DNA from: Cyanobacterium sp. T60_A2020_053
GTDB taxonomy: Bacteria; Cyanobacteriota; Cyanobacteriia; Cyanobacteriales; Cyanobacteriaceae
Direction: 5' to 3'
Assembly: GCA_015272165.1 (NCBI GenBank)
Contig: JACYMF010000049.1
Span: forward strand, 1-33,410
Length of the DNA: 33,410 nt
A program made the translations under genes and the position numbers. A model generated the notes under the pieces. That model searched no databases. It had not been told where the DNA came from and was given only the letters and a program-made list of their open reading frames with translations. Within the stretch, counting starts at the first letter, position 1, and every line of letters begins with the position of its first letter. Shown one piece after another: positions 1,604 to 33,410 of this stretch.

Positions 1604-2968
1604 TTAGTAATATTTGTCAATGGTTTGAGTAATCTTTCTTTCCATAACTTTAGCCATTTTTTGCCAAGAAAAAAATTTAGCTTGTTTTACTCCAGCTTTT
1701 ATTAAGTTATCTCTAATTTCACTATTTTCTAATTTTAGTAATGCTTCTATCATGTCGTTAATATCATTATCCTCAACATAAATTACCGCTTCTCCTCCCA
1801 CTTCAGAAAGAGAAGCATTACGAGTAGTAATAACTGGGCAACCACAAGCCATCGCCTCTAAAACAGGCATTCCAAAACCTTCATATTTAGAGGGATAAAC
1901 CAGCGCCCTTGCCCCACCATAAGCGAGTCGTAATTCATTATCACTGAGGTTTAAAGAGTGAAAAGTACAACCATAAGTATATTGTCGCCATTCATTAGGT
2001 AAATTATTTCCAGCGCCCGTTGACACTATATCAAAATCAGTTTTATTAAGCAATTTTGCAAAGGCTTTGAGAAAAAGCAGAGAATTTTTATAACCAAATA
2101 AACTACCTAATAAAAAATAAGGTTTTTGAATCCCATATTTAGCTTTAAAATCACTTATTTCTGATTCAGAGCTAGGATAAAATGAAGAACTAACACCACA
2201 ATAAGCTATCTTAATTGAGTCTAAAGATATTTGTGGAAAAAATTTATTTAAATCTTTTGCAGTATGTTGAGAAATAGCAATAAATCCAGAGGCATGATTA
2301 ATTGCTCGATGTTTTTCCTGCCACATTTGTTCTTTTAAATCATAGCCTAAAACTTCTGGAATCAGATCATAAGCAATAAAAAGAGAGGGAGTATTTAAAG
2401 GAGTTGTATAGTAACTAGAAATAAATAAATCCGCTTTTTCTTCATCACAAATCCTCTGTAATAATTGTCGATCTTTTTCTACATTATCATAACTATAGGG
2501 AGGAATATTTCGATAAGAAATACCTTTAATTTTTGGTGCAGTATTATCACGATCTAATACTAGAATATATTGAGCAAAATCAGTTTTAGCCCACTCTTTT
2601 AATAAACTACTCCATACTCTAGCAATACCTGTTTGATATAATTGAAAAAATACTGCATCAATAATTACTTTATAAGATTTTTTTGTTAAATTTTTACTAA
2701 CATAATCATTCCAGATTTGCTGATAAGCATTTTCGAGGGAATTAGTAATTAATTTACCATCAGTAAGAGGAGAAATTAACATTTTCTGCCGTAAATTTGC
2801 CCTAGCATTACTCAATAAATTAATATTTTTTGTTAAATTAATTGCCGTATTAACATACTCCTCTGGTGTCTTAGCAATCAATTTTGATAAACCAACGGCA
2901 GATAACAAACTCACCCCTACCCTTGACACATGATGTTTTCCAGAAAGCGTCACTACCGGCGCCCCCAT
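1604..2968 (-). CDS. Broken glycosyltransferase gene, 3' part: OGT C-terminal end plus GT4 domain
   Basis: Residues 1-90 (MGAPVVTLSGKHHVSRVGVS...) are not a natural N-terminus. They are the C-terminal end of the SPINDLY/OGT (GT41) catalytic region whose first part is encoded at 3108-5114. Residues from about 100 to 454 form a GT4-type (GT-B) glycosyltransferase, with the acceptor-domain start KKSYKVIIDAVFFQLYQTGI and the nucleotide-sugar site EGFGMPVLEAMACGCPV near residue 365-381. Removing the MITE and one target duplication joins Leu-Trp-Met of the upstream part to Met-Gly-Ala of this part in frame, giving an ancestral protein of about 1108 residues. The present ATG lies in the target duplication, and no ribosome binding site is obvious. 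The GT4 domain could still be made as a separate protein if transcription continues through the MITE. Confidence 0.85.
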   Translation of the reverse strand: MGAPVVTLSGKHHVSRVGVSLLSAVGLSKLIAKTPEEYVNTAINLTKNINLLSNARANLRQKMLISPLTDGKLITNSLENAYQQIWNDYVSKNLTKKSYKVIIDAVFFQLYQTGIARVWSSLLKEWAKTDFAQYILVLDRDNTAPKIKGISYRNIPPYSYDNVEKDRQLLQRICDEEKADLFISSYYTTPLNTPSLFIAYDLIPEVLGYDLKEQMWQEKHRAINHASGFIAISQHTAKDLNKFFPQISLDSIKIAYCGVSSSFYPSSESEISDFKAKYGIQKPYFLLGSLFGYKNSLLFLKAFAKLLNKTDFDIVSTGAGNNLPNEWRQYTYGCTFHSLNLSDNELRLAYGGARALVYPSKYEGFGMPVLEAMACGCPVITTRNASLSEVGGEAVIYVEDNDINDMIEALLKLENSEIRDNLIKAGVKQAKFFSWQKMAKVMERKITQTIDKYY

Positions 2969-2974
2969 CCATAG

Positions 2975-3149
2975 CAGGGCGTTTTCAAAGTCGGCATCAA
3001 AATTGATTTGTTTTTGACAAGAAGACAGGTTGACAGGGAGACAGGAGGATTTTTTACTATTAATTGATTTATTGGTAGTTAAAAACCTCTGAATTTCAGA
3101 TTATTGGCTAGTTTGAGAAACTAACATTTTTGAGAATGAAAACGCCCTG
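2975..3149. mobile_element. 175-bp MITE, copy 1, inserted in a glycosyltransferase gene
   Basis: The element starts CAGGGCGTTTTCA and ends with the inverted form TGAAAACGCCCTG, a 13-bp perfect terminal inverted repeat. It is flanked by a perfect 9-bp direct repeat, CATCCATAG (2966-2974 and 3150-3158), the target-site duplication. A second copy in opposite orientation at 9648-9822 differs at about three positions. It carries no transposase, so it must be mobilised by a related full-length element. The insertion adds 184 bp including one duplication, which shifts the reading frame of the host gene. Confidence 0.93.
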
Positions 3150-5114
3150 CATCCATAGCGCCTCACAGGTTGTTGTGGTACCATGATAAGGGTAAGTATC
3201 AAGGGCAATATCGATATTTTCGTAATAGGCAAGGTGGTTTTGATTGTCGGGAATTTTACTAACTAATCTGACTCTTTCGGCATTGATACCGTTTTCCTTG
3301 AATATTTCTAACCAATATTGGTGAGTTTCTTTATCGATATGATAATTAGTTTTGAGGATTAAGCGAGAATTTTCGACATTATTTAAAATTTTGCTCCAAT
3401 ATTGAATTAGGGGCGGATTTATTTTGGCAAAATTGTTAAATGAACCAAAAGTAATATATTTGTTCTGTAATGCTGGTAACTCTGAAACGGGGGGAGAGTT
3501 GTCAGGGGGATGATAACAGAGAAAGTGAGGTAATCTGATTAAATTTTCGCTGTGTAAGTGTTCGGTTTTGCCTTTTGGATCGGTATAATTATCAACAATG
3601 CGATAATCTATACTTTTTAATCCTGTGGTGTTAGGATAACCGATGTAATTTACTTGTATTGGGGCAGGTTTTCTACTAAATAATAACAGGCGGTGGGCGC
3701 TGGTGTGTCCTGATAAGTCAATTAATATATCGATTTCGTCTTTTTGTATCTGTTGATAAACTTCCTCATCTTCTAACTCATGTATGTCTCGCCATCCATC
3801 CACTAAGCTACGGAGACGAATTGTCGTGTCGTCTTCTTTTTCGTTATTGTAGTAGCAAAATACCTCAAATTGTTCTCGATTGTAGTTAATAAAAATTTCT
3901 TCGATGAAAAAGGCTACAGAGTGATGACGAAAATCTCCTGAGACATAACCGAGACGAATTTTTTTATCTGCTTGAGGATGGTTAGTATAAGTACTATTTT
4001 TGTTATATAAGGGTATTTCGTATAATTCTGACCATTTTTGATGCTGTTGATAAATATATTCTGGGGTGTATTCTGGGCTATAATTAAGACTGAAAATGTA
4101 ATTACTGCGCGCGTAGAGAAATTCTGGATCGATGGTGAAGGCTTGTTGATATGATTGTAATACTTCCTCCGTTTTACCTTGAGATAGTAAGATGTTACCT
4201 AGGGCAAAATGGGTTTCTTTTCTCGTTGGTTCAAAATCCAGCGCCCTCCGATAGTATTCTATAGCTTGGTTAAACTTGCCTTGTTTACTGAGAATATTAC
4301 CTAAATTGTTTAAGGCTTCGGGATAATTAGCTTTAATGTTGATGGCTTGGTGGTAGGCGCTGACGGCTTCGGTGAGTTTGTCTTGTTTTTGTAAGGCTAA
4401 ACCGAGATGATAATAGGCATCGGCAGAATGGGGATTTAATTCCAGCGCCCTTCCACTGGTTTCTTCTGCTAAAATAAAGTTTTCAATTTCTAGGTAAGCA
4501 TTGGCTAAATTAATTAAGGTTAAAGGTTGTTGAGAATTAATTGTTAAAGATTTTTGGAAACATTCAATAGCTTTTTGATGGTGTTTTTGTTTGCCATATA
4601 CTACCCCTAAATCATTATATCCTGTGGGATTTTTGCTGTTATTTTGAGTAAAAATTTCTAAGTATTTAATACTTAAATCTAACTCATTTTGTAAACCTAA
4701 TAATACTCCTAAATTTTGATAAACTTCCCACCATTGTGGTGCTAATTCAATGGTTTTTTGATAAAATTCTATGGCTTTCGATAAGTTATTTTGATCTTGA
4801 TAAACATTAGCTAAATTTTTGTAAAAAATAGCTTGATTTGGTTGACATTCAATGGCTTTTGTGACATGCAATTCTGCTGATTTAAAGTCTTTTTGTTGAG
4901 CGTAAATAATACCTAATAAGTGTAAAACATCAGGATGTTTTGAATTTATTTTTAGTAGTTGTTCAAAAATACATTTAGACTCCGCTAACTGTCCATTTTG
5001 TAGTGCATCAATGGCAGTTTGTAATTGTTGATTAAAAGTATCGCTAACTTGAGATGAATTATTAATGGAAGTGGAGTTACTAAAACCTTTTTTTTGTTTC
5101 CCTTTTTTTTTCAT
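3108..5114 (-). CDS. Broken glycosyltransferase gene, 5' part: TPR repeats plus OGT-like domain
   Basis: The 668-residue ORF begins with a basic, low-complexity stretch, then about nine tetratricopeptide repeats (roughly residues 31-335, units such as YKNLANVYQDQNNLSKAIEFYQKTIELAP). The N- and middle parts of a SPINDLY/O-GlcNAc-transferase-like GT41 domain follow (DKKIRLGYVSGDFRHHSV near 382, DILIDLSGHTSAHR, YIGYPNTTGL, HGTTTTCEALWM at 644-655). Such proteins transfer sugars to proteins; in bacteria they are often N- or O-glycosyltransferases for surface proteins. The last 13 residues are read from the MITE and end at its TAG. The catalytic C-terminus continues out of frame at 2968. Activity of the truncated protein is doubtful because the GT41 domain lacks its final 90 residues. 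Confidence 0.88.
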   Translation of the reverse strand: MKKKGKQKKGFSNSTSINNSSQVSDTFNQQLQTAIDALQNGQLAESKCIFEQLLKINSKHPDVLHLLGIIYAQQKDFKSAELHVTKAIECQPNQAIFYKNLANVYQDQNNLSKAIEFYQKTIELAPQWWEVYQNLGVLLGLQNELDLSIKYLEIFTQNNSKNPTGYNDLGVVYGKQKHHQKAIECFQKSLTINSQQPLTLINLANAYLEIENFILAEETSGRALELNPHSADAYYHLGLALQKQDKLTEAVSAYHQAINIKANYPEALNNLGNILSKQGKFNQAIEYYRRALDFEPTRKETHFALGNILLSQGKTEEVLQSYQQAFTIDPEFLYARSNYIFSLNYSPEYTPEYIYQQHQKWSELYEIPLYNKNSTYTNHPQADKKIRLGYVSGDFRHHSVAFFIEEIFINYNREQFEVFCYYNNEKEDDTTIRLRSLVDGWRDIHELEDEEVYQQIQKDEIDILIDLSGHTSAHRLLLFSRKPAPIQVNYIGYPNTTGLKSIDYRIVDNYTDPKGKTEHLHSENLIRLPHFLCYHPPDNSPPVSELPALQNKYITFGSFNNFAKINPPLIQYWSKILNNVENSRLILKTNYHIDKETHQYWLEIFKENGINAERVRLVSKIPDNQNHLAYYENIDIALDTYPYHGTTTTCEALWMQGVFILKNVSFSN

Positions 5115-9631: not shown

Positions 9632-9855
9632 CCCCCCTCTCCTGTGGCAGGGCGTTTTCATTCTCAAAAATGTTAGTTTCTCAAACTAGCCAATAATCTG
9701 AAATTCAGAGGTTTTTAACTACCAATAAATCAATTAATAGTAAAAAATCCTCCTGTCTCCCTGTCAACCTGTCTTCTTGTCAAAAACAAATCAATTTTGA
9801 TCTTGACTTTGAAAACGCCCTGCTCCTGTGGGAGAGGGGTTGGGGGTGAGGGTAA
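9632..9855. repeat. Hairpin repeat CCCCTCTCC...GGAGAGGGG interrupted by MITE copy 2
   Basis: Without the MITE and one target duplication the sequence reads CCCCTCTCCTGTGGGAGAGGGG then TTGGGGGTGAGGGT. The same repeat is intact and inverted at 23254-23290. The stem-loop occurs between genes in both places. The MITE at 9648-9822 inserted just past the loop. Confidence 0.75.
9648..9822. mobile_element. 175-bp MITE, copy 2
   Basis: This is the same element as 2975-3149 in the opposite orientation, about 172 of 175 bases identical by eye, with the differences clustered at GTCAAGATC versus GTCGGCATC. It has the same CAGGGCGTTTTCA ends. The 9-bp target duplication CTCCTGTGG flanks it at 9639-9647 and 9823-9831. 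The target is the stem-loop repeat described at 9632-9855. Near-identity of copies suggests recent movement. Confidence 0.92.
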
Positions 9856-23227: not shown

Positions 23228-23290
23228 TAGGGCGGTGGGGGGCGCTGGGTTTGACCCTCACCCCCAACCCCTCTCCCACAGGAGAGGGGA
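23228..23290. repeat. Iterated word plus CCCCTCTCC hairpin repeat (intact copy)
   Basis: GGCGGTGGGGGGCGCTGGGT is followed by ACCCTCACCCCCAACCCCTC and TCCCACAGGAGAGGGG. The hairpin is the inverted, uninterrupted version of the repeat split by the MITE at 9632-9855. A weaker word, GGAGGGCTCTGG, follows at 23302-23313. Confidence 0.7.
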
Positions 23291-23317: not shown

Positions 23318-23674
23318 TTACTGAGAAAGTTCTTTAAGTTGACGTAATTTTACAATCAGGATCGGAATTTCATCACAAACAATGCTCCAAATAATATCAT
23401 TATCAATACCGAGATAGTTATGAATAACTCTGTTACGAGTAGCAATGATTTTTCGCCAAGGAATATCTGGATAATTATTTCTGATTTGTAGGGGAATTTT
23501 AGTGGCTGCCTCGCCGATAAGTTCTAAATTTCTTAGGGTTGCATCGTAATATAATTCATTAGCAATAAAGTTTATTTGATCGAGGTTGCTAGTATATTTT
23601 TGTACTTTCTCGGCAAAGTTGATCATATCGTCAAGGTAAAATAGCCATTTTCTGCGTGGTGTATCATTAGACAT
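23318..23674 (-). CDS. hepT: HepT-family (DUF86) RNase toxin
   Basis: HepT toxins are HEPN-fold ribonucleases. The catalytic R-x4-H-x-Y motif is present as RNRVIHNY (residues 80-87 from the chosen start). The protein of 118 residues starts MSNDTPRRKWLFYLDDM. The frame can be extended six codons upstream, but the ATG at 23674 overlaps the mntA stop by eight bases (ATGTCTAA), the usual arrangement for this module. The adjacent MntA enzyme normally neutralises HepT by adding AMP to its tyrosine, here Tyr87. All key residues are intact, so the module may be active. Confidence 0.92.
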   Translation of the reverse strand: MSNDTPRRKWLFYLDDMINFAEKVQKYTSNLDQINFIANELYYDATLRNLELIGEAATKIPLQIRNNYPDIPWRKIIATRNRVIHNYLGIDNDIIWSIVCDEIPILIVKLRQLKELSQ

Positions 23675-23957
23675 CAATTTTTTCTGCTTCAATTTGAGCT
23701 TTTAATTCGGGGCGAAGGGCGCTGGTGGTTACTAAATCGATAGGACTTTTTAATAAATCTTCGAGATGAAATAATACGCCAAAATATTTACTTGAATTGG
23801 CTTTTTCTCTAAAGCTAATTAGTATATCAATATCACTGGTTTCTGTGGCGGTATCTCTGGCAGTTGAACCAAATAAGGATAAGCTATCAACTCCATATTT
23901 TTTTTGAAGCAAAGGTTTATTTTCTGTGAGGATTTGGAGAACTTTTTGTTTGTTCAT
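23667..23957 (-). CDS. mntA: MntA-family minimal nucleotidyltransferase antitoxin
   Basis: This 96-residue protein has the GSx10DxD signature of the polymerase-beta superfamily, GSTARDTATETSDIDI (residues 30-45; metal-binding Asp42 and Asp44). MntA antitoxins AMPylate the HepT toxin. It precedes and overlaps hepT, giving an intact two-gene toxin-antitoxin operon. The GGGCGCTGG word occurs once in the coding region, so it has been resident long enough to share the genomic pattern, or acquired from a relative that has it. Confidence 0.92.
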   Translation of the reverse strand: MNKQKVLQILTENKPLLQKKYGVDSLSLFGSTARDTATETSDIDILISFREKANSSKYFGVLFHLEDLLKSPIDLVTTSALRPELKAQIEAEKIDV

Positions 23958-32853: not shown

Positions 32854-33027
32854 ATGAGAGAAATAGTTTTCTATCGTACATCTTCGGGGAATCGTCCTAT
32901 AGAAGATTTTTTGGATTCTCTTTCCGCAAAACAAGCTCAAAAAGTTATTTGGGTGTTAAAATTGGTTACAGAATTAGAGGCAATCAGGGATGGAGTATTA
33001 ATATTCGATGATACCAGTAGCTTTTGA
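32854..33027 (+). pseudogene. Truncated HigB/RelE-type (phage Gp49-like) toxin
   Basis: MREIVFYRTSSGNRPIEDFLDSLSAKQAQKVIWVLKLVTELE matches the N-terminal 42 residues of the Gp49-like HigB toxin family (normally about 110 residues). After about residue 46 the frame runs into transposase-related DNA and stops. The catalytic C-terminal half is missing, so it is a dead gene. The usual downstream HTH antitoxin gene is absent. Confidence 0.75.
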
Positions 33028-33410
33028 GGTAATCAAGAAACCAATAGAGTTTTGCGAAATTAAAACAAAAAAGAAAAAACGGAGGGGAAGTGCCACAAAA
33101 AATGAATTATTGAGAAAACAGTTAATAATTTGTCAAAAAAATGAGCTGAAATACAAATATGTATTAACAGATAGTTGGTTTGCGGCAAAGGAAAATATGG
33201 ATTTTATCCGAATAACATTGGGTAAACATTTCATCATGGCATTAAAAAGTAATCGAACCGTAGCGATCAGTGAAGAAAAGAAAAAACAGGGTCATTTTAT
33301 TAGAATTGATGAACTAGAATGGTCAGAAAAGAATGCAAAATTAGTGTGGTTAAAAGGAGTAGAATTTCCGATTTTACTTCATCGACAAATCTTTACAAAC
33401 AAAGATGATA
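33008..33410 (+). pseudogene. Partial DDE transposase (IS4-like), running off the window
   Basis: The frame MIPVAFEVIKKPIEFCEIKT...YKYVLTDSWFAAKENMDFIRI...HFIMALKSNRTVAIS...FPILLHRQIFTNKD matches the middle of a common cyanobacterial IS4-like transposase, including the second catalytic Asp region (LTDSWF). The N-terminal third is missing: the frame just upstream has a stop and joins HigB sequence. The 3' end is cut by the window edge, so I cannot tell whether it is complete there. Confidence 0.8.

Follow-up and report, generated by a model that had tools for sequence, protein, structure and literature searches.

The genome of Cyanobacterium sp. T60_A2020_053 carries a family of miniature inverted-repeat transposable elements (MITEs) that inserts at CT-N5-AG, mostly in the loops of extragenic palindromes, and one copy, in what appears to be a rare off-target event, split a glycosyltransferase gene in two. 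The split gene lies in the window, by which we mean the whole stretch of DNA analysed (contig JACYMF010000049.1, our C49, 33,410 bp), within a genome of 3.36 Mb in 118 contigs. On its own the split is ordinary, as element-cut genes are a known kind of event; what is added here is the family's target preference and the glycosyltransferase insertion as the exception to it. The features at the split gene are as follows.

1604-2968, minus strand: 3' fragment of the split gene, 454 aa, with the GT41 C-terminal piece and a GT4-type glycosyltransferase domain
2966-2974: left copy of the target-site duplication (TSD), 9 bp, CATCCATAG, a direct repeat beside the MITE
2975-3149, plus strand: 175-bp MITE with perfect 13-bp terminal inverted repeats (TIRs) CAGGGCGTTTTCA at 2975-2987 and 3137-3149
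3150-3158: right copy of the TSD, 9 bp, CATCCATAG, a direct repeat beside the MITE
3108-5114, minus strand: 5' fragment of the split gene, 668 aa, with TPR repeats and the greater part of the GT41 (OGT) domain

Gene structure on both sides of the element indicates a single ancestral reading frame. Taking out 184 bp gives one open frame of 1108 aa that reads ...CEALWM-GAPVVTLSGK... across the joint, which bears out the preliminary description, where a glycosyltransferase gene split by a MITE and restored by this removal (...EALWM-GAPVVTLSGK...) had been proposed. Removal of the 175 bp alone also leaves the frame open (1111 aa), and removal of 176, 183 or 185 bp brings the first stop at amino acid 661, 686 and 658, respectively. 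The joint was free of gaps in 11 of 11 alignments of the GT41 region with fetched open reading frames (ORFs), 10 of these alignments coming from relatives and one from a same-genome paralogue, and the ancestral state is therefore a continuous GT41 domain. In the present arrangement, the final 13 amino acids and stop codon of the 5' ORF are MITE sequence, and the first ATG of the 3' ORF falls within the duplicated target. The 3' ORF covers GT41 profile positions 467-541 of 543 together with a nearly complete GT4-type domain, and the GT41-GT4 fusion is thus seen directly within it. The gene had been called an OGT, and the GT41 (OGT) domain is indeed present, but the gene is more than that, a TPR-GT41-GT4 fusion. 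Since the 5' ORF is left without the last ~75 of the 543 GT41 profile positions, OGT activity was most likely lost through the insertion.

The element itself has the properties of a MITE. The interval 2966-3158, earlier read as a MITE with a perfect 9-bp target duplication, consists of exactly the element plus both repeats, and its TIRs are perfect. It is short and lacks a transposase, with all of its own ORFs below 80 aa. The predicted RNA fold of 2976-3150 reached -52.4 kcal/mol (z -5.2), and none of 200 shuffles was as good. When up to two mismatches were allowed, only four ends were found in the window, all exact and belonging to two elements, against a chance expectation of 0.65. The second element sits in a triplex- or REP-like palindrome (REP, repetitive extragenic palindromic) with an ORF on either side.

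9648-9822, minus strand: second MITE copy (98%), TSD CTCCTGTGG at 9639-9647 and 9823-9831

Copies of this MITE are numerous across the genome. The exact 13-bp end occurs 53 + 47 = 100 times genome-wide, compared with 0 + 0 for the reversed control. A genome search with 2976-3150 recovered at least 46 pieces, a lower bound because scoring covered 40 of the 202 first-look candidates; at least 19 of the pieces are full-length at 97-100% identity. From 80 fetched stretches and the window, we compiled 60 elements with matching 9-bp direct repeats (at most one mismatch), the target duplication expected of a MITE; copies with mismatched repeats, single ends or positions at contig ends fall outside this set. 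By size, the 60 comprise 32 elements of 215 bp, 16 of 175, four of 176, two of 216 and six others, the 215-bp class being the 175-bp element with the palindrome CCCCCCTTAAAAAGGGGGG inside. Identity to the class consensus is common, at 22 of 32 copies for the 215-bp elements and 5 of 16 for those of 175 bp, so the family burst recently. The OGT-site copy stands outside those nearest the consensus, as it differs from the 175-bp consensus at 4 of 175 positions and ranks 15th of 16, with its nearest sister copies differing at two. A looser 18-base end pattern matched 95 times in the present genome and 0 times in its four congeneric genomes, one of which (G003) gave a weak partial match in a similarity search.

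Several copies occur at contig ends or as dimers. Contigs C11, C19 and C113 of the present genome (G000) have their start or end inside or beside a MITE copy. Breaks of the draft assembly at these repeats are thus probable, which makes the copy number a minimum. Dimers with a common 10-bp spacer, CTCCCAACCG or its complement, were found at C105:75669-76108 (L145), C8:195605-196004 (L089) and C113:3-402 (L150) of the same genome. The first two have a 9-bp duplication around the whole dimer, as if it had moved as a unit, and the third is cut off by the contig end. At three further sites (C18:8794, C58:102927 and C77:6861 of G000), a normal target flanks the copy at just one end, with the dimer spacer, CGGTTGGGAG or its complement, at the opposite end; these single-sided flanks could be explained by recombination or short-read assembly collapse.

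Insertion sites of the family share a pattern. Within the TSD consensus CT-N5-AG, C and T were each found in 55 of 60 elements, A in 57 and G in 59. A first kind, which is common, reads CCCTCACCCCCAACCCCTCTCC-CACA-GGAGAGGGG, and a second reads CCCCCTTnnnAAGGGGG. When empty sites were rebuilt with one repeat copy kept, the palindrome score exceeded the 99th percentile of ~20,000 random positions of the window at 40 of 60 sites, the behaviour of a REP-targeting element. Unoccupied palindromes of the first kind numbered 89 in the genome (at most one mismatch; reversed control 0), including one in the window.

23270-23287: empty target palindrome CCTCTCC-CACA-GGAGAGG, unoccupied

The second-kind palindrome had 96 genome matches and, among the matches listed, many were inside 215-bp elements. 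Relative to the loop, the MITE pointed one way at 24 and the other way at 3 of 27 first-kind sites (binomial p 5e-5 if the sites are independent), a count that excludes two more sites of this kind whose loop is CAGA. Frames of at least 200 aa crossed the insertion site in 5 of 60 cases; for random positions the share was 49% within the same loci and 67% across the window. A preference for palindromes would in this way spare genes.

The OGT insertion departs from this pattern. Its site alone lies deep in a long frame, with more than 300 codons on each side within the 1-kb flanks, and the other four sites with a frame of at least 200 aa are 2 to 77 codons from the frame end. The palindrome score of the OGT target is 1, at chance level. 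Together, the small number of framed sites, the depth of this one and its low score suggest that the insertion was off-target. We propose that a transposase recognising the CAGGGCGTTTTCA ends and making 9-bp staggered cuts acted in trans on the MITE, a non-autonomous DNA transposon. Insertion into CATCCATAG would then shift the frame by one base (184 = 3 x 61 + 1), and the GT4 half could be made only from a new start. That the MITE moved in trans, inserted in CATCCATAG and broke the TPR-GT41-GT4 gene as an off-target event is, in our assessment, very probable.

The transposase may have come from a subgroup of the ISAs1 family, by our judgement the likeliest source and somewhat better than an even prospect. 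Of 291 genomes in the order, 191, the present one included, contain ends of the type CAGGGC[GT][AGT]TTTCATTCTC (at most one mismatch), with the reversed pattern found 0 or 1 times per strand per genome. The MITE's ends, of the CAGGG...CAT form, resemble those of an ISAs1 subgroup, and one 1168-bp element (L266), in which two frames encode an ISAs1 transposase (NF033564, 93 and 130 bits), nearly has the MITE's end: its CAGGGCTATTTCATTCT is identical to the MITE end CAGGGCGTTTTCATTCT at 15 of 17 positions, and its other end matches at 11 of the first 13. An intact ISAs1 element whose end is exactly that of the MITE was not found. At another locus (L288), an ISAs1 C-terminus lies ~30 bp inside a similar end, with a score of 39 bits that is below the 70-bit cut-off. 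Duplications in the ISAs1 family range from 8 to 10 bp.

A number of results weigh against the account of trans mobilization and off-target insertion, in addition to the chance-level palindrome score given above. The genomes searched, with 19 loci examined, yielded no empty allele of this gene. An intact transposase with CAGGGCGTTTTCA-type ends was not found in the present genome; all nine of its ISAs1 matches are fragments, and a different end, CAGGGCGAACGCATAC, is found on the longest of them. L266 was without a matching duplication. In a scan of 31 full-size ISAs1 loci from relatives, 12 have a clear duplication of 10 bp and one (L198) has one of 11 bp, so that the 9-bp length of the MITE was seen in none. 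All 13 of these elements have another end type, CAGGG...CGCA. Of the 12 that were scored, 0 lie in a palindrome, and we therefore reject the idea that ISAs1 elements in general target palindromes.

Other candidates and comparisons were also considered. As possible autonomous partners within the genome, nine DDE_Tnp_1 matches were listed beside those to ISAs1; stretches around several of the non-ISAs1 transposase matches were without MITE-type ends, and the search yielded no partner. An IS701-like transposase fragment at 33008-33410, running into the contig end, was set aside at 95.5 bits, below the 250-bit cut-off. Among MITE-sized elements of the order, one of six scored (L269) has a strong palindrome. 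At 26 loci in related genomes we found four 174-bp elements with exact 9-bp duplications and flanks that are non-palindromic by eye, and an apparent palindrome at L042/L043 proved to be the same end read twice. A 186-bp cousin (L046, G020 C123) with a CAGGGTCTTTTCATTC end and the 10-bp duplication CTCTTGAAAG lies in a palindrome-like site in a genome from another family of the order. Two-frame ISAs1 transposases are located at 1506-2607 of L266, at C12:65623-66566 of G000 and at C1:1568138-1568873 of G003, with the frame break at profile position ~150 (L266) or 183-194, a sign of either decay or programmed frameshifting.

What the transposase recognises at its target can be read in two ways. 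There is about an even chance that, instead of a hairpin or triplex, it reads a plain motif made up of a C-rich arm, CT-N5-AG and a G-rich arm. The motif persists where palindromes do not, as 13 low-palindrome sites, picked by eye from 20, kept the first C of the TSD at 8, the T at 9, the A at 10 and the final G at 12, with a G after the TSD at 7; yet the two palindromes that serve as targets differ in their arms and loops, and the orientation is biased despite the symmetry of the inner motif. More tentatively, the unseen transposase might recognise an extruded hairpin or intrastrand triplex and insert in a preferred orientation to the third-strand tract. If so, hairpin repeats would be safe havens for the MITE, and MITE and repeat, which nest mutually in that a palindrome lies inside the 215-bp class, could spread together; this would also help to explain the instability of triplex-motif loci in cyanobacterial genomes. 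Dozens of natural insertions would mark which extragenic palindromes, and which loop base, the transposase can reach, and could make the existence of hairpin or triplex repeat forms in living cells testable. The family also links an abundant repeat to a mobile element.

We also considered whether the split is old and stable, with the two ORFs now separate working genes to which the MITE gives a stop and perhaps a start. Searches of relatives bear on this question. In the named genomes, a search for an uninterrupted orthologue gave only 8 distant loci, at no more than 36% identity. The joined stretch matched at least 194 of 388 genomes and, among the matches listed, mainly through its GT4 part. 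Of the 19 loci examined (L294-L312), 0 had GT41-like sequence before the GT4 domain within the stretch covered, and in the relatives fetched the GT4 domain lies in ORFs other than those aligning to GT41, or far from GT41. An orthologous TPR-GT41-GT4 fusion was not found in the genomes searched. A stable split is consistent with both ORFs being open, with the near completeness of the GT4-type domain, with the position of the 3' ATG inside the duplication and with a copy whose sequence does not place it with the youngest. However, the 5' ORF has lost the GT41 end, the end repeats and duplication are perfect, and no ribosome-binding site is evident by eye ahead of the ATG, so that we regard a stable split as unlikely. 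Nor is the earlier claim established that open fragments imply a very recent event: the open ORFs and perfect duplication fit it, but this copy has four differences from its consensus where many others of the family have none, and an orthologous empty allele was not found among the genomes searched. An off-target insertion into a continuous gene, of whatever date, is the reading that we prefer.

It is improbable that the family makes no choice of palindromes, the palindrome halves and MITE having instead been copied as composites (e.g., by REP mobilisation or gene conversion): identical duplication letters CTCCCACAG in 17 of 60 elements and the shared orientation to the loop would suit such copying, but size classes 175, 176 and 215 share a kind of site, loops vary (CACA, CATA, CGCA, CAGA) with duplications matching on both sides, the same elements also lie in an unrelated palindrome (CTTnnnAAG) and in non-palindromic sites, and outer flanks are mostly unlike, with 14 bases TCAAAATGCTTTGC common to three sites apparently being part of the repeat.

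MITEs that break cyanobacterial genes, insertion sequences (ISs) in REP palindromes and REPs within palindromes are already known, as the relevant parts of the reports cited below describe. Anabaena sp. 90 has 147 MITEs, 15 of them inside disrupted ORFs, which were called type II because that genome has no matching IS (PMC3542288). Like the present family, these are short and non-autonomous with terminal repeats, and are mostly intergenic with a minority producing pseudogenes; in contrast, the present family has ends like those of an ISAs1 subgroup and a defined palindrome as its main target, of which the part of that report dealing with these MITEs makes no mention (PMC3542288).

Among ISs, ISPsy8, ISRm22, ISPpu9/10 and ISPa11 insert in REP elements (PMC1525189). 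The likeness is in the many copies in extragenic palindromes, with ISPsy8 and ISRm22 at the symmetry axis, but as far as the relevant sections go those elements are autonomous, have duplications of 0-6 bp and belong to Pseudomonas and Sinorhizobium (PMC1525189), whereas the present system is a MITE of a cyanobacterium with 9-bp duplications and two unrelated palindrome families. Repeats within palindromes are known too, cyanobacteria included, as GTAG repeats have been reported inside palindromes in T. roseum and, as dimers, in Anabaena variabilis (PMC3733652). There, according to the section concerned, the inserted unit is a REP and not a TIR-bearing MITE with duplications, and the palindrome sequences differ (PMC3733652).

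The commonest target also resembles a known structural motif. Holder et al. described the intrastrand triplex motif TM-ECO, with CCCTCTCCCTGTGGGAGAGGGCCGGGGTGAGGGC as no. 1 of its E. coli examples, and many G/C-rich triplex motifs in cyanobacteria (PMC4666352). Read on the other strand, our commonest target, CCCCTCTCC-TGTG-GGAGAGGGG-TT-GGGGGTGAGGG, has the same build as that example, CCCTCTCCC-TGT-GGGAGAGGG-CCG-GGGTGAGGG-C (PMC4666352). Holder et al. found the E. coli motif unassociated with transposons (PMC4666352), whereas the present motif is a favoured insertion site. By title or abstract opening, no report of a MITE targeting these motifs was found in the literature searched, in which subscription journals are thinly covered.

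Finally, the empty palindrome at 23270-23287 of the window is adjoined by a HepT/MntA-like type VII toxin-antitoxin pair (23318-23957; both below the curated cut-off).

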